In this document: positions 38,369 through 49,940 of the stretch, in pieces | Numbering within the stretch: position 1 is the first letter of the stretch | Layout of the letters: each line of letters starts with the position of its first letter | Source: Planctomycetota bacterium | GTDB lineage: Bacteria; Planctomycetota; Planctomycetia; Gemmatales; HRBIN36 | Assembly: GCA_014584395.1 (NCBI GenBank) | Contig: JACTMY010000010.1 | Location: 62,001-126,000, forward strand | Length of the DNA stretch: 64,000 nucleotides | Reading direction: 5' to 3' | Notes under the pieces: model-generated | Told to the model about the DNA's origin: nothing | Databases searched by the model: none | Seen by the model: the letters and a program-made list of their open reading frames with translations, nothing else | Translations under genes and position numbers: made by a program

Positions 38369-41300
38369 ATGCCAGGTCGAACCTTTGCCGTTTGGGTCAG
38401 CCTGCTGTTCATGTCGGTCCTGACTGGTCTTGGCCACGAACCACCGGCGACCTTGAGGCCGATCCTCTTCCTGGGCGACAACGGCCATCATCGCCCCATG
38501 GAACGCTTTCGGCAGATCGAGCCAATCCTCCGGGCGCGGGGTTTTGACCTGACCTACACCGATCAACTGGAATCACTCCGTCCGCAACTTCTTGCTCAAT
38601 TCGATGGACTGATCATCTACGCCAACCATACCGCCATTTCTCCCGAACAGGAGAAGGCCTTGCTGGACTTTGTCGAGCAGGGCAAGGGCCTGATTCCCCT
38701 GCATTGCGCTTCCTACTGCTTCCTCAACTCGCCCCGGTATATCGAATTGGTGGGCGCCCAATTTCTGCGCCATGGCACCGGCACGGTCCGCACGTTGATC
38801 ACCGAACCAGGCCACCCGATTATGAAGGATTTTCAAGGGTTTGAAAGCTGGGATGAGACTTACATCCACCACAAGCATCATGCGGCCAACCGCATCGTCC
38901 TGGAAGTGCGCGAAGAAAACGGCGTTAAGGAACCTTGGACCTGGGTCCGAACCCAGGGGAAAGGACGCGTCTTTTACACCGCCTGGGGCCATGATGCGCG
39001 TACTTGGGGTCATCCGGGATTTCAACATTTGCTCGAACGCGGCCTTCGGTGGGCTCTCGGTGACGATCCAGCCAAGGTGCCGCCCTACGTCGACCGTCCG
39101 GTCATGACGGAGCTGTCCAAGGAGGCCAAACCGTTTCAATACGTCCCCGCGAACGTGCCCTTCTATCCACCGCGCGGCGGCGGTTCACGCACGGACACCC
39201 AGCGGCAGATGCCCTTGCCGCTTGACCCGGCCGAGTCGCAAAAGCACATGGTCCACCCGGTCGATCTCGAATTGCATCTCTTTGTCGCGGAACCCTCCTT
39301 GGGCGGCAAGCCTGTTGCAATGAATTGGGATGAGCAAGGACGGCTCTGGGTGGCCGTCTCCGTGGATTATCCCAACGACTTGCAGCCTGAGGACCAGGGC
39401 CATGATCGCATCATCATCTGCGAGGATACGACCGGCGATGGCCAGGCCGACAAGTTGACCGTGTTCGCGGATCGGCTGAGCATCCCCACGAGCTTGCTGT
39501 TTGCTCGCGGCGGCGTCATCGTGCATCAGGCCCCGCACACCTTGCTTCTCAAGGACACGAACGGCGACGACGTGGCCGATGAACGCACCGTCTTGTTCAG
39601 CGGCTGGCACACCGGCGATACCCACGCCGGCCCCAGCAACCTGCGCTATGGACTGGACAATTGGCTGTGGGGCATCGTTGGCTACTCCGGCTTTCGCGGT
39701 CAAGTGGGTTCCCAACGCCATGCCTTCAGCCAGGGGTTCTATCGCTTCACGCCGGATGGGCAACACCTGGAGTTCCTGGCCAGCACGAGCAACAACTCCT
39801 GGGGCGTGGGCATCAGCGAGGAAGGCTTGATCTTCGGCTCGACGGCCAACGGCAACCCTAGCGTACATCTGGCGATCCCGAATCGCTATTACGAGGCCGT
39901 CCATGGCTGGACGTCAAAAGTGCTTGGCAGCATCTCCGGCGACGTGGCGATGCACCCGATCACCGATCAAATCCGCCAGGTGGATTACCATGGCCGCTTT
40001 ACCGCCGCGGCCGGCCATGCGCTCTACACGGCCCGCCAGTATCCCCCCTACTATTGGAATCGAACCGCCTTCGTGGCCGAGCCGACGGGACATCTCGTGG
40101 CCACCTTCACTCTGCAACCTTTCGGGGCCGATTTCCGATCGCGAAACGCCTGGAACCTTTTGGCGAGCCAGGATGAGTGGACCGCGCCCACCATGGCCGA
40201 GGTCGGCCCGGACGGCAACGTTTGGGTGATCGATTGGTACAACTACATTGTGCAACATAACCCCACTCCCCGCGGCTTCGAAACCGGCAAGGGGAACGCC
40301 TACGTCACCGACCTGCGCGATAAAAAGCATGGCCGCATCTATCGCCTGGTGGCTAAGAATAAACCGGCCGCGGCCAAGATCAATTTGAAGAACGCCTCCG
40401 CCGAGACCCTGGTGCAAACGCTGACGAATGACAACCTCTTTTGGCGGCTGCATGCCCAAAGGATGCTTGTCGAGCGGCAACAGGCCGACGTGGTACCTTC
40501 CCTCATAGCCCTGATTCAAGATCCCAAGGTCGACGCCATCGGCCTCAATCCAGGTGCGATTCACGCCTTGTGGACCTTGCATGGGCTGGGGCTGATGACG
40601 GAATCTCACCCCATGGTGGTGCAAACCGTCGTGCAGGCATTAAAGCATCCTTCAGCGGGCGTGCGGCGGAATGCCGTCATGGTTTTGCCCCGGAATCTCG
40701 AGGGTCTGCATGCCCTGCTGAATCAGAAATGTTTGAAGGATGGGGATGCTCAGGTGCGGCTGGCCAGCTTATTGGCTCTGGCGGAGATGCCGTCTGATGC
40801 GGAGGCGGCCCGGGCTTTGGTCGAGGTGGCTCAATTGCCGGACACGCTGTCGGATCGCTGGCTTCGGGAAGCCGCCATCTGCGCCGCGGCCCGCCAGCAT
40901 GATGGTTTTCTTGCCGCGATTTGCCAAACGAAACGCTTTCCCACGGAACTACTCGAAGTGCTGCGGATCGTGGCGGAACATGTTGCACGATCCGAAGATC
41001 GGCATCAAGCAGCCGCCCTGCTCCCCTCCCTCTGCGCGGCGCCACCCGTTGGCGCCGAGGCCATCCTTCAAGGCTTCGCCAAGGGTTGGCCCGAACAACA
41101 CAGTTTGTCCCTGGAAAGCGACCAGGAAAATCGACTCATTGAGCTCTTTCATCGCCTTCCCCCCGCGGGACAATCCAACCTGGTCAAGGTGGCCGCGCGC
41201 TGGGGCAGCCAATCCCTGACCAAACAAATCAACGCGATTGTGGAAACCTTCCTCAAGTCCCTGCAGGATGAAAAGTTGCCCGCGGAACAAAGAGTCTCCA

Positions 41301-42712
41301 TGGCTAAGCAACTCGTGGATTTGAAGCCCGAGGATGAGGCCGTGCTCCAGGCGATCATGGAGCACATGGGTCCGCGCCAACCTCCCGCCTTGACCACGGG
41401 GCTGATGCAGGCTCTGGGAGCCTCTCGATCCCCTCGCCTCGCCAGCCTGCTGATTCGTGAAAGCAAGAGTTGGACTCCCCAGGCCAAACGCGAGGCCATG
41501 CAGTTGCTCCTGCAGCGCAGCGAACGCATCCATGAGTTGCTCACGGCCGTCGAAAAACGCGAGCTTCCCTGGAACGATTTGGCTCCCGATCAGATACAGA
41601 CGCTGCTTCATCATCCCGATCCGAAGGTCGCCGAGCGGGCCAAACCCATGTTTTCCAGTCGCGGCGGCGTCCCCAATCCTGACCGGCAAAAGATCGTTGA
41701 GCAATTCATGCCCCTGATCAAGAAGAATGGCGATCCAGTCAAGGGTAAGCTGGTCTTCATGAATCACTGTGCCAAGTGTCACACCCATGGCAAAGAAGGC
41801 AACAAAGTCGGCCCCGATCTCACGGGCATGGCGGCGCTCGGCAAAGAACAGTTATTGACGGAAATCCTTGATCCGAATCGCAGCGTGGAAGGCAATTACC
41901 GGCAATACACCGTGGTGACGGAAAAGGGCCGGCTGCTGACAGGGCTATTGGCGTCCGAAACCCGCACCGCCATCACGCTGATCGACGCCGAGGGCAAATC
42001 CCACGCGCTGCTCCGCGAAGAGATCGATCAACTCACCGCCTCTTCCAAGTCGCTGATGCCCGAGGGATTCGAACAACAAATCAATGAGACCGAAATGGTC
42101 GACTTGCTCGCCTTCCTGAGCCAGCGGAGCCGCTTTATTCCACTTTCCTTGGAGAAAGTGGCCACGATGAACAGCACGCGCGGCATGTTTTACAGCGAGC
42201 AAGCCGAGGTCGAACGCTTGATCTTCCGGGATTGGAGCACCAAGGTGCACAACGGCGTCCCCTTCCACCTGATCGATCCGCGGCCGGAGGGTAGTCTCAA
42301 CGTCGTCCTGTTCCATGGACCGCAGGGGCAATTTCCGCCGCAAATGCCCAAGCAGATCACCCTCGATTGCCAGACGCCCGTCAAAACGCTCCATTTGCTC
42401 AGCGGCGTCAGCGGTTGGGGCTACCCCGCCACGCCCAAGGGCACCACTTCCTTGCTGGTGCGCTTGCACTATCAGGACGGGGAAAAGGAAGAACATGCCC
42501 TGCTCAATGGCGAGCATTTCGCGGACTACATCCGCCGGGTCGACGTGCCGCAATCTTCCTTCGCCTTTTCCCTTCGCGGCCAACAAATTCGGCACATTCA
42601 GATCAACCCGAAACGCAGCGAACCGCTGCGGCAATTGGAATTCGTCAAGGGACCTGATCGCACGGCTCCAATCCTCATGGCGGTGACCGTTGAAACGCCG
42701 TCCGCGGATTAA
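38369..42712 (+). CDS. Giant secreted ThuA / membrane-bound-dehydrogenase / HEAT-like / haem-binding protein (PVC type)
   Basis: A 1447-residue exported protein. After a signal peptide (1-23) come a ThuA-like domain (about 30-245: DFVEQGKGLIPLHCAS, YTAWGHDARTWGHPG), a beta-propeller of the PVC 'membrane-bound dehydrogenase' kind (about 285-660: NWDEQGRLWVAVSVDYPND, WVIDWYNYIVQHNPTP), a helical HEAT-like region (about 690-1090), a c-type haem module with CAKCH at 1134-1138 followed by GNKVGPDLTGM, and a beta-rich C-terminal domain. This order is a hallmark of Planctomycetes/Verrucomicrobia, probably for oxidation of sugars or related substrates. The substrate is unknown. The start ATG gives a clean signal. 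Confidence 0.92.
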   Translation: MPGRTFAVWVSLLFMSVLTGLGHEPPATLRPILFLGDNGHHRPMERFRQIEPILRARGFDLTYTDQLESLRPQLLAQFDGLIIYANHTAISPEQEKALLDFVEQGKGLIPLHCASYCFLNSPRYIELVGAQFLRHGTGTVRTLITEPGHPIMKDFQGFESWDETYIHHKHHAANRIVLEVREENGVKEPWTWVRTQGKGRVFYTAWGHDARTWGHPGFQHLLERGLRWALGDDPAKVPPYVDRPVMTELSKEAKPFQYVPANVPFYPPRGGGSRTDTQRQMPLPLDPAESQKHMVHPVDLELHLFVAEPSLGGKPVAMNWDEQGRLWVAVSVDYPNDLQPEDQGHDRIIICEDTTGDGQADKLTVFADRLSIPTSLLFARGGVIVHQAPHTLLLKDTNGDDVADERTVLFSGWHTGDTHAGPSNLRYGLDNWLWGIVGYSGFRGQVGSQRHAFSQGFYRFTPDGQHLEFLASTSNNSWGVGISEEGLIFGSTANGNPSVHLAIPNRYYEAVHGWTSKVLGSISGDVAMHPITDQIRQVDYHGRFTAAAGHALYTARQYPPYYWNRTAFVAEPTGHLVATFTLQPFGADFRSRNAWNLLASQDEWTAPTMAEVGPDGNVWVIDWYNYIVQHNPTPRGFETGKGNAYVTDLRDKKHGRIYRLVAKNKPAAAKINLKNASAETLVQTLTNDNLFWRLHAQRMLVERQQADVVPSLIALIQDPKVDAIGLNPGAIHALWTLHGLGLMTESHPMVVQTVVQALKHPSAGVRRNAVMVLPRNLEGLHALLNQKCLKDGDAQVRLASLLALAEMPSDAEAARALVEVAQLPDTLSDRWLREAAICAAARQHDGFLAAICQTKRFPTELLEVLRIVAEHVARSEDRHQAAALLPSLCAAPPVGAEAILQGFAKGWPEQHSLSLESDQENRLIELFHRLPPAGQSNLVKVAARWGSQSLTKQINAIVETFLKSLQDEKLPAEQRVSMAKQLVDLKPEDEAVLQAIMEHMGPRQPPALTTGLMQALGASRSPRLASLLIRESKSWTPQAKREAMQLLLQRSERIHELLTAVEKRELPWNDLAPDQIQTLLHHPDPKVAERAKPMFSSRGGVPNPDRQKIVEQFMPLIKKNGDPVKGKLVFMNHCAKCHTHGKEGNKVGPDLTGMAALGKEQLLTEILDPNRSVEGNYRQYTVVTEKGRLLTGLLASETRTAITLIDAEGKSHALLREEIDQLTASSKSLMPEGFEQQINETEMVDLLAFLSQRSRFIPLSLEKVATMNSTRGMFYSEQAEVERLIFRDWSTKVHNGVPFHLIDPRPEGSLNVVLFHGPQGQFPPQMPKQITLDCQTPVKTLHLLSGVSGWGYPATPKGTTSLLVRLHYQDGEKEEHALLNGEHFADYIRRVDVPQSSFAFSLRGQQIRHIQINPKRSEPLRQLEFVKGPDRTAPILMAVTVETPSAD

Positions 42713-42824: not shown

Positions 42825-42989
42825 TGATTAATGATTTCATTGAGTCATTGACCTTTCCAATCGGACCAAGATGGTTTGCGTGAAGATCGAGACACATCAC
42901 CATCACGGGGATCGGTTTGCCACCGAACGAGATCGGCTTGACCGGTTCCATCCATTGCCTTCGCAAGTTCTCCCAAAGGAGTGATCCGC

Positions 42990-45299
42990 ATGGCCACGAA
43001 ACAACCCGGCGTGTGGGGTATTGACATTGGTCAATGCGCGCTCAAGGCGCTACGCTTGGAAAAAATCAACGACGTGATCACGGCCACGGCCTTCGATTTC
43101 ATTGAATATCCGAAGATTTTAAGCCAACCCGACGCGGAACCTGACGCCTTGATCCGCGAGGCCCTGGAACAATTCCTCTCCCGCAACAACATCCGCGGCG
43201 ATCAGATCGCCATCAGCGTGGCCGGTCAAACCGGCCTGGCTCGTTTCGTGAAGCTGCCGCCGGTCGAAGCCAAGAAAATTCCCGATATCGTCAAGTTCGA
43301 AGCCAAGCAGCAGATTCCGTTTTCGCTCGACGACGTGGTTTGGGATTGGCAAATCATTGGGACGCAGGGCGGCGGCGAGGGCTTCGTTGAGAATGAAATT
43401 GGCCTCTTCGCCATCAAGAAGGACATGATCTACCGCGCCTTGCAAGCCCTGAAGGATGTCAAGGTCGAGGTCCATCTCGTGCAAATGGCGCCCTTGAGTC
43501 TGTGCAATTTCGTCGCCTACGATCTGCTCAACAAGGAAAAGACGGGCGGCGGCGGCGGCGATCATGAGTGCATCGTGGCCATGGACATGGGCGTGGACAA
43601 CACCAATTTGGTGGTCACCGACGGCGAACGCATCATTTGGCAGCGGGCCATCCCCATCGGCGGCAACCACTTCACCCGCGCCCTCACCAAGGAAATGAAG
43701 CTGACGTTTGCCAAGGCGGAGCACCTCAAGCGCAACGCCACCAAGGCGGAAGATCCGAAAAAGATTTTCGCCAGCATGAAGCCCGTGTTCGCTGATTTCG
43801 TAGGCGAACTGCAGCGCTCCTTGAGCTTCTTCACCAATTCCCATCGCAACGCACAAATCAAGCGCATGCTGGGGTTGGGCAATGCCTTTCGGCTGCCAGG
43901 CCTGCAAAAGTTCGTCAGCCAGAGCATGGGCATCGAGGTCGAGAAAATCAACGAATTCAATCGACTGGTCGGCGACGAAGTTCGGCAATCCCCCGTTTAT
44001 GCGGATAATGTGCTGAGCTTTGCCGTGGCTTATGGCCTGGCGCTGCAAGGCATGGACGTCACGCGCATCTCAACCAACCTGCTCCCGCAAGACATTCGCA
44101 TGGAGCGGCTGATTCGGTCCAAGAAACCTTGGGCCTTATCGGCGGCCGCCGCTCTGCTCTTTGGCATCGGCGTTTTCGCCATCGGCAGCGGCGCTCAATG
44201 GAGCAAGGCCAGCGAGACTAAAAAGGAAGCGGACAGCGCCAAGACGGTCATGGAGGAATCCAACCGGAAAAAGGCGGCTTACCAACAAGAGCAGCAAGAA
44301 CTCATCAAGGCGCGGCAAGCGGCCACGCTGATCCTGCGCGGCAGCGAGGAACGCGTCAATTGGGGCCTCTTCAACCGGCTCATCAACGAGTGCCTGCCGC
44401 AGCCCAACGGCACCAATTTGCCCACGCATCGCCTCGACAACAACGTCGTGCCTTACGAAAAATATTTCGGCCAGAACGACCGCGCCCAGCGCGCCTGGAC
44501 GATTAAGGAAGAGCGCGATCGGGCCGGCATTCGCAACGACGAAATCAACGCCAGCGTGCTGGTTCAAATCAACATCCAGGCCATCTGGGCCCGCTATTGC
44601 GACACGAGCATGGCCACAAACTTTTTCACGCAAGTGAAGCAGCGGTCCACAATCTCGGAAACCGTGGATCCGAACAAGGACCCCGACTGGAAAGAAGCGC
44701 CCAAGCAGCCGGGTTGGGCCATTGAGATTCGCGGCTTCACCTATCATCAGGATGCCCACCATTTCGTGCGGGAAACCTTCCTGGAAAACTTAAAAAAGAA
44801 GAAGTCGGTTTTCTGGCCGGTCAACTCGCCGTATGCGACCCCGGTCAAAATGGACACGAGTCATGTCGCCATTCTGCTCTTCGAAACGGTGGACGTCACG
44901 CAAAACCCCAACCCCGCGTTCACCAAGATTTCCTCCTCCAACATCTTTCTCAATGAACTTTTGAAAAGTTCATCCAAAGAAAGCGGCGGCGCGGGGGCCG
45001 CGAGCGGCGGTTCAGGCGGTGGAGGCGGCGCGGGCGCCATGATGCTCGATCCAGGAGCCACCTCTTCCGGTGACAGCAGTTCCACGCAGTCTCAAGGGAG
45101 TTTTAAGCTCAGTTCGCCGCGCAATTCCGAATGGTCGGGCTTGTCGCCCATTGGCAGCGTGGTGGGGGATAACCTGGCCGCCGGGGCCAAGGCCATTCAA
45201 GAAGATGCCAAGAAACGGACGGAATTCGTCATTGTGCTCTACTGGGTTGAACCGTTGCCGACGGAGCCGCAATCCACGGCGCCGGTCGCTCCGAAATAA
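42990..45299 (+). CDS. pilM: Type IV pilus PilM protein fused to a PilN-like domain
   Basis: A 769-residue protein, about twice the size of PilM. Residues 1-355 are the actin-like PilM: WGIDIGQCALKALRLE, KLPPVEAKKIPDIVKFEAKQ, MDMGVDNTNLVVTDG and MLGLGNAFRLPGLQKFV. It continues with N363-L-L-P and ERLIRSKKPW, which resembles the INLLP start of PilN, then a membrane helix (about 381-401), a coiled coil and a domain with GWAIEIRGFTYHQDAHHF of ferredoxin-like look, ending in Gly/Ser-rich linkers. It would sit at the inner membrane in an alignment complex. AGGAG is eight bases upstream of the ATG. It leads two further large genes with a short gap. Confidence 0.87.
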   Translation: MATKQPGVWGIDIGQCALKALRLEKINDVITATAFDFIEYPKILSQPDAEPDALIREALEQFLSRNNIRGDQIAISVAGQTGLARFVKLPPVEAKKIPDIVKFEAKQQIPFSLDDVVWDWQIIGTQGGGEGFVENEIGLFAIKKDMIYRALQALKDVKVEVHLVQMAPLSLCNFVAYDLLNKEKTGGGGGDHECIVAMDMGVDNTNLVVTDGERIIWQRAIPIGGNHFTRALTKEMKLTFAKAEHLKRNATKAEDPKKIFASMKPVFADFVGELQRSLSFFTNSHRNAQIKRMLGLGNAFRLPGLQKFVSQSMGIEVEKINEFNRLVGDEVRQSPVYADNVLSFAVAYGLALQGMDVTRISTNLLPQDIRMERLIRSKKPWALSAAAALLFGIGVFAIGSGAQWSKASETKKEADSAKTVMEESNRKKAAYQQEQQELIKARQAATLILRGSEERVNWGLFNRLINECLPQPNGTNLPTHRLDNNVVPYEKYFGQNDRAQRAWTIKEERDRAGIRNDEINASVLVQINIQAIWARYCDTSMATNFFTQVKQRSTISETVDPNKDPDWKEAPKQPGWAIEIRGFTYHQDAHHFVRETFLENLKKKKSVFWPVNSPYATPVKMDTSHVAILLFETVDVTQNPNPAFTKISSSNIFLNELLKSSSKESGGAGAASGGSGGGGGAGAMMLDPGATSSGDSSSTQSQGSFKLSSPRNSEWSGLSPIGSVVGDNLAAGAKAIQEDAKKRTEFVIVLYWVEPLPTEPQSTAPVAPK

Positions 45300-45397: not shown

Positions 45398-47659
45398 ATG
45401 GCCGCCAAAGTCAAAGTGGACAAGGAATTCCTGATCAAGCACCGCTTCTGGTTGCTTTTGCCCTGCATCGGCATCGCGGTCCTGATCGGGTGGATTTGCG
45501 TGCTGTATGTGCGCGATGAAACGGAGACTTTCCAGAAGGATGCGCAAGCCGTGCATGGGCAACTGCTCGGGGTTCAGAATGATCCCGCGAAGCGCAACGA
45601 CGGCTGGATCAAGGCCATTCAGGAAAAGAAAATCGTCTCGCTCGACCAGAAAAATGAACTGTGGCTCGAAGGCTACGATCAGCAGAATTCCGTGCTTCGC
45701 CGGCCGCCCGCCAACAACGCCACTCCTTCGACGCCAGGCATGAAACCGTTGGGCGAACTGATCGAAATCCGCGATCCCATCATCACTTGGCCCGCCAAAA
45801 CGGCCCAGCTGTGGGAAGCCGACAAGCCCGGACAAAGCCTGCGGTTGCTCGACTTTGGCGAGCCTCTGCAGATCGTTCCCATTGACTATCGCAACGATTA
45901 CCTCCTGCAATTCAACACCGTGCTCAATCTCATCGAATGGTACGATGAAACCACGGGCAAAGGCGCCGTCCGGGTCCTGGGCGGCTCGGGCAATCATCGC
46001 TCCAAGGCCAACGCGGATTTATTGAAGCCCTTCCAGTTCAAGCCCGATCGCACCGTGCTCTCCGAGGAAGCCTGGACCTTGCAAGAGGAACTGGCCATCC
46101 GGCGCGAGATGCTCCGCAGCCTGGCTCAGGTCATCGATCACGCGGGAACCTTCAGCCGCGAATGGCAAGTGATCACCAAGCCCGCGAACCAAAAGAATCC
46201 AGCATCCGCCAACAACAAATCCGGCTCAACCCCCGCGCCCGCGAAATCCACGCTGGATGAACTCACTTTCTATAACCACGTTTGGACCTGGACTCTGCCC
46301 CCCGCGGCTGAGATCAAGAATGAGCCGACGCCGCGCCGCATGCCGAGCGTGCCGATCCCGCCCACGGTGCCCAGTTGGCAAGGATGGGAATTGGACCTGC
46401 AATTGGTCGTGGACGGCAACAAGGTCAAGCTGGAAGGCAAAAGCATCAATCATTCCACCAAATACACCATCCCGAAGGCCGCCTTGCTCGTCTATTTCAT
46501 TGATGGCGAGACGAAACAAGAAAAAGCCAACCCCGTGGAATTGGACGATGCCGGTGAATTGCCGCCAACACAAGCCTCCGGGGGCGCGACGACCCAATTG
46601 AGCGAGCGCGCCTTGCGGCCCCGCGAAGTGGAGCCGGGGTCGATCCGCATCTCTCGGGTGGTGCGCAAAGCGGAGGAACCCTGTCTGGACCAACTGTGCG
46701 TTTACAACCAAAATTGGGTCATGGACGTGCGTTTTCTCGGCCAACCCAATAGTTCGATCACAACGGTCAATTGCACGTTGTATAATCGCGGCCCGCGGCG
46801 GACGCCCGTCCCCAATTTCAACATCGAATGGTCCGATGGCACCCCCACCCGGGGGACCGCCATGAAGAATCCCGAGAAGAGCATCCGTTTCTCCGTCGAT
46901 GCCCTTGATGCCGGGGATAAAAAAACCTTCACCCAGGAATTTCGCGAATCCTACGCCATGCGGAAGATCATGAACGTTCGCCAAACCATGGATTGGCGCA
47001 ACACGCCCATCAAGCGCATGGACGTCATGGAAATTGGCCTGACGGCTCATGAACATTCGGATCGCACCAAGGTGACGCCGCTGGTCGCCTACAAATTCAG
47101 CAACAAGGATCCCAAGGCCCCCGCCGCGGGCGCAGCTGCCTCGGAGCCTCCAGCGCTGTCGGCAAATCACGAAGTCATGATGAAGCGCTATCTGGAAGTT
47201 TCCCATGAAGTGCGCCGCCTGCCCGTGTGCTTGGTGTTGGTGACCGATGCCTCGGCTGTCAACGAAGTCCTCACGGGGTTGTCCAATTCGCGTTTGCGTT
47301 TCCAAGTCACGCAGGCGGTTTGGAATCGGACGGCCAGCCTGGGCAAGCCGATCAGTCCGGGCCAACCCAGCGGCGGCACCGGCACCACGGGAACCACCGG
47401 CGGCAGCGGCGCGCCCTCCACGACGCAAGGAGGCGGCTCGCAAATGAACGTCCCCTCGCCTCCCACCGGAGCGGGCAGCGGCATGTTCTCTTCCGCGGGA
47501 TCGGGCAGCGGCAGCGACAAGAAAGCCCCCGCCCAGATGATTGGGGTCGAGGACGACAGCGCGGTGGTCGTGCTGCAAATCTATGGCATGGTGACATTGT
47601 ATGAAAGCCCCGACGCCTACGAGCGCATCGAACAAGCGCGGCGAGGCGGCGGCCGATAG
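45398..47659 (+). CDS. Single-pass inner-membrane protein of the PilM cluster (possible PilO-like component)
   Basis: A 753-residue protein of unknown family. A short basic N-terminus is followed by one membrane helix (about residues 17-38) and a large extracytoplasmic part, with a predicted helical stretch after the helix (ETETFQKDAQAVHGQL). The middle has Pro/Ser linkers and beta-rich segments; near the C-terminus is a Gly/Ser/Thr-rich linker (about 675-705). Position after PilM-PilN suggests a PilO-like partner. The ATG at 45398 is favoured for its clean membrane start (AGAGGT lies 11 bases upstream); an ATG at 45299, touching the pilM stop, would add 33 residues. Confidence 0.72.
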   Translation: MAAKVKVDKEFLIKHRFWLLLPCIGIAVLIGWICVLYVRDETETFQKDAQAVHGQLLGVQNDPAKRNDGWIKAIQEKKIVSLDQKNELWLEGYDQQNSVLRRPPANNATPSTPGMKPLGELIEIRDPIITWPAKTAQLWEADKPGQSLRLLDFGEPLQIVPIDYRNDYLLQFNTVLNLIEWYDETTGKGAVRVLGGSGNHRSKANADLLKPFQFKPDRTVLSEEAWTLQEELAIRREMLRSLAQVIDHAGTFSREWQVITKPANQKNPASANNKSGSTPAPAKSTLDELTFYNHVWTWTLPPAAEIKNEPTPRRMPSVPIPPTVPSWQGWELDLQLVVDGNKVKLEGKSINHSTKYTIPKAALLVYFIDGETKQEKANPVELDDAGELPPTQASGGATTQLSERALRPREVEPGSIRISRVVRKAEEPCLDQLCVYNQNWVMDVRFLGQPNSSITTVNCTLYNRGPRRTPVPNFNIEWSDGTPTRGTAMKNPEKSIRFSVDALDAGDKKTFTQEFRESYAMRKIMNVRQTMDWRNTPIKRMDVMEIGLTAHEHSDRTKVTPLVAYKFSNKDPKAPAAGAAASEPPALSANHEVMMKRYLEVSHEVRRLPVCLVLVTDASAVNEVLTGLSNSRLRFQVTQAVWNRTASLGKPISPGQPSGGTGTTGTTGGSGAPSTTQGGGSQMNVPSPPTGAGSGMFSSAGSGSGSDKKAPAQMIGVEDDSAVVVLQIYGMVTLYESPDAYERIEQARRGGGR

Positions 47660-47762: not shown

Positions 47763-49940
47763 ATGGCCAAGAAAAAAATGGCAATGAACTTCGACTACAA
47801 GCAATTTTTATTGAATTATGGGGATCGCATCGGCGTGGGGATCGTGGGATTCCTAGTGCTGATGCTGCTCATTTACAGCTTTCTTGGGCCGGAGAAGTCG
47901 CTCTCTTCAACGGAAGTTCGCGAGCAGCGCGATCGTTCGCGGCAAGCGCTCATCAATTTCCCCGTGGACCGGGGGCAATTGGAGCCCAAGGAAGTCAAGA
48001 GCGTGGAGGAAATTGCCAAGTTGTCGGAGAGTATGAAAAAGCCCGTTCCCTTCGGCACGCTGGCCACGCTTTTCCCCTTCCAATACGTGCCGCCCGGCCA
48101 GGACAACTTCCGCTCCAATCCGGAAGTCTTCTCCGCCGTTGCCCTCAAGGCGGCTCCCGTGATCATGGCCTACAAAATTTACGACATCCAAGGCGACAAG
48201 GTGATCGTTTTGGAGCCGATGAAGGAGGGCTTGAACCTCAAAGGCGATCGCGGAAAGAATGAACAGTTGCGTTCAGGAGGCGGCGGCACGCCATCGCCAG
48301 GCGCGGGCATGGGCGTGCCGCGTGCGCCCAAAGGGTCCGACAAACCGCCCGCGCAAGCGCAAGACTCAGGATCCAAGGACGCCATGTACAAACGGCGGCG
48401 AATCAATCTCGATGAGTTGGGCGACGAGTTGGTGGCCATCAACATCATGCCCACGCGAGCGGCCTTGGTCATGGGCATCTACCCCTATGGCAAGCAGTTG
48501 GATGAGTTGGCCCGCGCCTTGAAGATGGATAAGAGCCAGATCGAATCCTATTACAAGGGTCTGGAGATACAGCGGCGGGAAATTATCCCTCAGGGAACCC
48601 GCCTGAAGGACGGCACCTTCGCCAGCGAAGATTTGGTCTTGGTGCCTGATCCCAAGAACCCCGCGACACTGATCGCCGTGCCGTTGTCCCAAGTCCCGGC
48701 CAATCCCGTCAAGAACGAAGAAGTCGCCGCGGCAGGTTGGATTAACGTGGACAAGAAGCTCTTGGGTCAGATGGTCAAATACGCCGTGGAGGAATACGTG
48801 GAGTCCGACAGCATCCTCCGCAGCCTACTGAACTTGTCGGATCGCTTAGTGCAGCGCATTCCCAAGCCCCTTCGCAGCGACTACCCCAACCTGTCGAAGG
48901 ACATCAAGGAGTTGGCGGAGTTGGTGGAAAAAATCCGCAAGGACAACACGCCCATCCCGCCGCCGAAAAAGCATAAATTCGCAGACCGAACCGACGACGG
49001 CTTTGGCACCGATTCTGGCACTTCCGGCTCGGGTTCGCAACAAAGCAGCAGCGGCGGTTCTGGCACGGCTGGCCTGTCCGGCGACACGGGCAAATCTAGC
49101 GGCAAGGGGAGCGATTCCAGCAAGGTGGATTTGACCAAGCTCACTTACGTGCCGGATTATTGCCTTATTCGCTTCCTGGATCTAACGTTGGAGGCGGAAA
49201 AGGTCGGTGGACGGACCTTTGAGTATCGCATCAAGGTTGTCATGGATAACCCGAATTTCGGGTCGGACATGGTGGCCGTGCCTGAATTCGCGACCATCCG
49301 CGAGCTTGCCGGCCCCTGGAGCCCGACGTGCCGGGTTACTTTCCCCAAGGATGAATACGTCTTCACCAGCGAACGCCGACGTCCACGACCCAATACGCCA
49401 GATTTCGATACGGAACGCGTCCCCATTCAATTGCACAAATGGCTCGGCTTTGTCGAGCCGGACGTGACGGCTCAAGAAGACCTGGAGCGCGTCGGGGACT
49501 GGTGGGTGGAATATATTCTGGCGTCCCGCGGTGAATACATTGGCCGCGTGCCCACGGCGAAAGACGGCGAAACACCCTTGATCGTCTGGATGTCCTATCT
49601 CGCGGAAGGCGGCGACGCCAGCAAACTGGGCATCGATTCGATCATTAAAACGCGGACGCCGAACTTGCTGACGCGGCTTCTCCTCGCCGATTTCGAAGGC
49701 GGCCATAAATCCAGGCATCGCAAACTGGATGGCCGCGGAACTTGGGAGGAGGACATCCCCGCGGAACTGCTGATCGTGGAACCCAATGGCCGCATGATCG
49801 CCCGCACGCTGCAGCGCGACCGTGAAGACGACATTCGCCGCACGCGCTTCGAACGTTTCGAACAATGGTTCAACACGATCAAGGAAAAATCCGAGCGTCA
49901 GAAGCCCAAGGAAGAAGAAAAACGCGACGATAAGAAATAG
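47763..49940 (+). CDS. Second single-pass inner-membrane protein of the PilM cluster
   Basis: A 725-residue protein, unrecognised. Lysine-rich N-terminus, a membrane helix at about residues 24-42 and a large outside domain. It has a Gly/Ser-rich linker (about 418-450) between two folded parts and a highly charged C-terminus (KEKSERQKPKEEEKRDDKK region) that looks solvent-exposed. GGAGGAG precedes the ATG. It follows the second cluster gene by 103 bases and is closed by a strong terminator, so the three genes form one unit. The overall plan (helix, linker, domains) parallels its neighbour, and they may form a complex with PilM-PilN. Confidence 0.72.
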   Translation: MAKKKMAMNFDYKQFLLNYGDRIGVGIVGFLVLMLLIYSFLGPEKSLSSTEVREQRDRSRQALINFPVDRGQLEPKEVKSVEEIAKLSESMKKPVPFGTLATLFPFQYVPPGQDNFRSNPEVFSAVALKAAPVIMAYKIYDIQGDKVIVLEPMKEGLNLKGDRGKNEQLRSGGGGTPSPGAGMGVPRAPKGSDKPPAQAQDSGSKDAMYKRRRINLDELGDELVAINIMPTRAALVMGIYPYGKQLDELARALKMDKSQIESYYKGLEIQRREIIPQGTRLKDGTFASEDLVLVPDPKNPATLIAVPLSQVPANPVKNEEVAAAGWINVDKKLLGQMVKYAVEEYVESDSILRSLLNLSDRLVQRIPKPLRSDYPNLSKDIKELAELVEKIRKDNTPIPPPKKHKFADRTDDGFGTDSGTSGSGSQQSSSGGSGTAGLSGDTGKSSGKGSDSSKVDLTKLTYVPDYCLIRFLDLTLEAEKVGGRTFEYRIKVVMDNPNFGSDMVAVPEFATIRELAGPWSPTCRVTFPKDEYVFTSERRRPRPNTPDFDTERVPIQLHKWLGFVEPDVTAQEDLERVGDWWVEYILASRGEYIGRVPTAKDGETPLIVWMSYLAEGGDASKLGIDSIIKTRTPNLLTRLLLADFEGGHKSRHRKLDGRGTWEEDIPAELLIVEPNGRMIARTLQRDREDDIRRTRFERFEQWFNTIKEKSERQKPKEEEKRDDKK

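Follow-up and report, generated by a model that had tools for sequence, protein, structure and literature searches.

The window analysed here, 64,000 nucleotides of planctomycete DNA (contig JACTMY010000010.1), contains one gene in which PilM of the type IV pilus apparatus is continued by a second half that is very likely PilN. The open reading frame is uninterrupted up to position 45299, and an alternative upstream GTG at 42981 would lengthen the product from 769 to 772 residues. Residues 10–354 matched the Pfam model PilM_2 (PF11104) with an expectation value (E) of 1.1e-34 and 120.3 bits against a cut-off of 27, and residues 8–354 matched the NCBIfam model TIGR01175 (pilM) with 149.6 bits (cut-off 133). 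The 769-residue protein thus exceeds both curated PilM cut-offs, and its N-terminal domain has the actin/FtsA-like fold expected of PilM; the N-terminal half is PilM. A first-pass annotation of this DNA had described an actin-like PilM running into N363-LLP, followed by the basic stretch ERLIRSKKPW, a membrane helix and WAIEIRGFTYHQDAHHF. All of these were found where it had placed them, with the PilM domain ending at residue 354, the motif at 363–366 and WAIEIRGFTYHQDAHHF beginning at about residue 576. Many homologues are named in their source records only as "type IV pilus assembly protein PilM", a label that fits the first half only, and gene surveys that rely on it could report PilN as missing.

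The NLLP motif stands out from its surroundings. Residues T362–P366 were invariant in all 96 aligned homologues (drawn from at least 120) and formed the second-longest invariant run of the whole protein, and the conservation is therefore not due to chance. The mean majority frequency was 0.80 for residues 1–356, 1.00 for residues 362–366 and 0.39 for residues 383–769: the motif is under strong selection and is set in an otherwise poorly conserved half. It was found in 30 of 30 whole-genome loci among the matches listed. A further 80 loci taken from named records had xNLLP in 74 cases and TTLLP, TNLVP, TNLMP or TSLLP in the other six; the spacing between the last PilM helix (GLAL) and the motif was exactly ten residues in 70 of these 80 and 14 to 21 in eight, while two could not be parsed.

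Table 1. Features of the fused gene and the two genes downstream (window coordinates)
Feature	Position	Strand	Remarks
Fused pilM-pilN gene (second half very likely PilN)	42990..45299	+	769 residues; ATG at 42990; stop included
PilM domain, actin-like, FtsA fold, residues 10–354	43017..44051	+	Pfam, NCBIfam and structure match
NLLP motif, N363 L364 L365 P366	44076..44087	+	TNLLP (362–366) invariant, 96/96
Basic stretch ERLIRSKKPW, residues 372–381	44103..44132	+	R373, R376 and K378-K379-P380 invariant
Predicted membrane helix, about residues 380–403	44127..44198	+	Hydropathy; helix 367–400 in AlphaFold model
Predicted long helix or coiled coil, residues 404–468	44199..44393	+	Contains R455-x-x-W458, common with separate PilN
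PilN-like outer domain, residues 488–753	44451..45248	+	Strand-strand-helix-strand-strand core, extra helix, disordered insert
Gly/Ser-rich insert, residues 664–709	44979..45116	+	Low confidence (disordered) in AlphaFold model
Downstream gene 1	45398..47659	+	N-terminal membrane helix and large outer part; PilO position and architecture, without sequence match
Downstream gene 2	47763..49940	+	N-terminal membrane helix and large outer part; without family match

The second half was compared with PilN by hhalign, using a phylum-wide profile of the second half (29 rows) and an alignment of 17 separate planctomycete PilN proteins. The match had a probability of 94.5 and a score of 60.2, and aligned columns 1–222 with columns 3–177, starting at NLLP; a profile from the order and near kin alone reached a probability of 66.1 over 111 columns. 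Against five presumed PilO proteins, third genes that were named by their position, the second-half profile reached only 3.5; it gave 1.3 against downstream gene 2 and 61.0 against downstream gene 1, the latter over 52 columns only. Sixty shuffles of all PilN columns gave at most 3.2. With only the columns after the first 60 shuffled, again 60 times, the probability averaged 69.6 (maximum 85.7) and the score 41.9 (maximum 47.8, against 60.2 unshuffled); much of the signal therefore comes from the motif and the helix, to which the remainder adds.

Individual residues point the same way. The protein has NLLP before a single membrane helix, as PilN has at its N-terminus, and the same motif occurs in the separate PilN proteins of the phylum. 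In the latter, N, L, P and a W are invariant, and an R three residues before that W is nearly so; the corresponding residues of the fused proteins are W458, which is invariant, and R455, which is present in at least 90%. A search of 61 genomes with the PilN alignment matched the fused gene in five (G002, G022, G029, G043 and G050), from model position 2 or 3 onwards and with E between 9.1e-4 and 0.144, while other weak matches, including two in the genome that contains the window, did not cover model positions 1–5. Compared with separate type IVa PilM and PilN, the protein passes the same PilM cut-offs and has the NLLP of the PilN N-terminus, the basic stretch, the one membrane helix and R-x-x-W, but it is a single chain, and its outer domain is longer, containing one more helix as well as a disordered insert.

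In the AlphaFold model, residues 351–370, which include the motif, had predicted local distance difference test scores of 92–93 without regular structure. The best structural match of the model was an engineered PilM:PilN(1-12) construct from P. aeruginosa (5EOU), with residues 6–367 of the model aligned to residues 10–366 of the chain, so that the aligned range stops just beyond the motif. The NLLP lies at nearly the same distance past PilM in both and the motifs align; 5EOU, however, is a laboratory construct that contains only the first 12 residues of PilN. We consider it highly probable that PilM and PilN are combined here in one chain that has kept NLLP, with the motif predicted to sit against the PilM domain. 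The fused protein would then be a natural counterpart of the crystallographers' construct, kept across the order and, as one branch, in sampled families of the phylum.

Several results weigh against this interpretation. None of 68 fused outer domains scored with the Pfam PilN model (PF05137), the fold match of the outer domain to PilN was weak, and the outer core alone aligned with PilN with a score of 24.7 that exceeded all 100 shuffles (maximum 21.5), yet with a probability of just 4.3. In addition, two genomes of the phylum (G109 and G157) have the fused gene as well as a separate pair of PilM and INLLP-bearing PilN, both of which were read. A Foldseek search with the outer domain returned nothing at E 0.001, and a sequence comparison of this domain with solved structures returned nothing relevant (the best, at E 0.022, was a heat-shock-like protein). 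If the second half were an unrelated membrane and coiled-coil domain whose NLLP had arisen by convergence, the weak fold match, the missing Pfam match and the low core probability would all be expected. The Pfam result carries little weight, however, because PF05137 also misses a PilN-type protein encoded separately next to a short PilM (L056); the model was dropped as a test for the presence of PilN and the PilN alignment was used in its place. Moreover, the profile match extends past the motif, the core scores above every shuffle, the R-x-x-W signature is present and the PilN profile finds the fused gene, and we regard an unrelated domain as highly improbable. The identification of the second half as PilN made in the first-pass annotation is supported at the level of the profile alignment, whereas the structural evidence on the outer domain is weak.

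It is similarly improbable that the protein is GspL of type II secretion rather than a pilus protein. GspL (PulL, EpsL) is itself described as a PilM–PilN fusion, and by that description it has the same parts in the same order, namely an actin-like cytoplasmic part, one membrane helix and a PilN-like outer part in a single chain. The planctomycete protein differs in that it passes the PilM_2 and TIGR01175 cut-offs, gives no match to T2SSL (PF05134) at E 1 and retains NLLP, whereas the junction of E. coli K-12 GspL (388 residues), aligned by eye, reads DMLHG. The same genome also has PilT beside two PilB-like ATPases. GspL was rejected as the identity of the protein on the T2SSL result and the K-12 junction.

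The fusion as such is not unprecedented: in addition to GspL, fused pilM and pilN are reported in most pilus clusters of Campylobacterota (a preprint) and in Clostridioides difficile, fusions that we liken to the present one by their published description. One review indicates a different PilM–PilN motif in monoderms. Another comparison is with the Amuc_1101 family of Akkermansia (NF045709), to which residues 53–460 aligned over model positions 52–452, spanning NLLP and the membrane helix, but with 202.6 bits against an equivalog cut-off of 650, which makes the protein a relative and not a member; Amuc_1101 is termed a PilM protein within a four-gene locus. The kind of protein is thus known, and the planctomycete variant is a complete PilM continued by a probable PilN, with NLLP retained and a near-fixed linker. 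None of the open-access papers among the matches listed reported a planctomycete PilM–PilN fusion, which is no proof of absence.

The tether raises the question of what NLLP does. The motif is strictly kept even though the covalent link removes the need for recruitment, which suggests that the contact itself, and not the tether alone, does work. Because the chain already tethers both partners, the fused protein makes it testable whether the PilM–PilN contact serves only for recruitment or takes part in the working of the motor. Docking of NLLP in cis, with a stoichiometry fixed at 1:1 by the single chain, is plausible. NLLP could instead dock in trans, into the PilM of a neighbouring chain, and so link a ring. 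The linker is short (the ten-residue spacing described above), and a six-fold PilM/PilN/PilO arrangement is predicted in a recent Thermus study (PMC13039148). The crystal match is silent between the two, because only aligned residue ranges were compared, whereas the one-chain AlphaFold model sets the motif segment confidently without any neighbour; we think docking in trans rather unlikely.

In such a PilM–PilN fusion, the PilM half would lie at the cytoplasmic face, where it would meet the PilB and PilT motors, and the single helix would anchor the protein in the membrane. On the outer side, the downstream membrane protein would be the partner of the PilN half, much as PilO is of PilN. The NLLP contact might then act as a strut or switch through which movements of PilM, driven by nucleotide or by the motor, reach the outer ring. 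We would tentatively extend this, at somewhat less than even confidence, to a planctomycete platform built from a permanently locked PilM–PilN unit in which NLLP is retained not for recruiting PilM but as a strut that couples the cytoplasmic actin-like ring allosterically to the outer one; some planctomycetes would have, next to it, a second, unlocked PilM and PilN machine for a different job.

A fused homologue was present in 60 of the 61 genomes of the family and order that were searched, the genome of the window included; none was detected in one relative (G039). The homologue in another (G014, C1:5475989-5477880) is split over several frames with TGA, as if broken or misassembled. The first-pass annotation had made its case depend on there being no separate INLLP-bearing PilN in the same genome and clade. 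None was found in the genome of the window (an assembly 87.4% complete) or in the 60 relatives, where the lone Pfam PilN match over the cut-off was a 385-residue frame without an NLLP-type start (G023). This absence does not extend to the wider phylum, which has separate pairs and, in G109 and G157, both types. Over the phylum as a whole, PilM_2 was found in 240 of 244 genomes and Pfam PilN (E 0.001) in 104; in the class, leaving the order aside, Pfam PilN was matched in 20 of 39 genomes. Many of these PilN matches lie in frames of 400–560 residues that may be GspL-like. At least 12 genomes of the phylum (G066, G069, G074, G081, G093, G102, G109, G144, G157, G192, G215 and G301) have both short (up to 400 residues) and long (at least 600) PilM frames, classed by frame length with only some of the frames read. 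All 11 of the short PilM genes in L031–L041 were followed by a frame with NL[LI]P in its first 16 residues, as sought by a script, one of these frames being cut by the end of the locus. This unfused arrangement, together with the profile match, R-x-x-W and the PilN-profile search, supports the fusion proposed in the first place, which would have arisen when an ancestral pilM-pilN gene pair lost the stop and start between its genes.

In a tree of 51 hand-chosen PilM domains, rooted at the midpoint only and with several long branches, all 32 fused domains fell on one side of a single branch (support 98/97). The main fused type seems to form a single old lineage, and unfused systems persist in the same phylum. 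Shorter PilM–PilN fusions of 565–567 residues occur at L193:4798-6501 (+) in G291 and L194:5038-6735 (-) in G256; their Pfam PilN scores lie below the cut-off and they group with short PilM (97/89), and they look like an independent fusion. G256 additionally has a separate PilM and PilN pair (L206). In G102, the protein that takes the position of a separate PilN (L053:6071-6718, +) starts with MIEIDLLHG, not NLLP, which is close to the DMLHG of E. coli K-12 GspL.

The two genes that follow the fused gene have no Pfam or NCBIfam family. The longest frame of the first begins at 45299, overlapping the stop of the fused gene; the 753-residue database protein gives the start listed in Table 1. Against the presumed PilO proteins, hhalign gave 21.2 for the first and 0.6 for the second, and Pfam PilO scored over its cut-off in none of the 61 genomes. 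Among 68 complete loci, 49 had both genes closed; in the remaining 19, one or both were not found, which is explained by the end of the contig in some of them but not in others such as L119 and L151. Elsewhere in the same genome, one cluster holds two PilB-like ATPases, PilT, a platform protein and pilin-like genes; here (contig 3, L079:6396-11684, -) PilT is flanked by the two ATPases, both of which exceed the NCBIfam cut-off for the MshE-type cyclic di-GMP-binding domain, and a Pfam scan of one of them gave an MshEN match too. Contig 8 (L080:6140-11140, -) encodes a 1,666-residue secretin whose first 1,470 residues have no Pfam domain at E 0.001 and whose final ≈500 residues resemble PilQ/MshL/GspD. 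Upstream of the fused gene, positions 38369–42712 of the window encode a 1,447-residue protein that combines ThuA, DUF7133, HEAT repeats and a cytochrome c domain.
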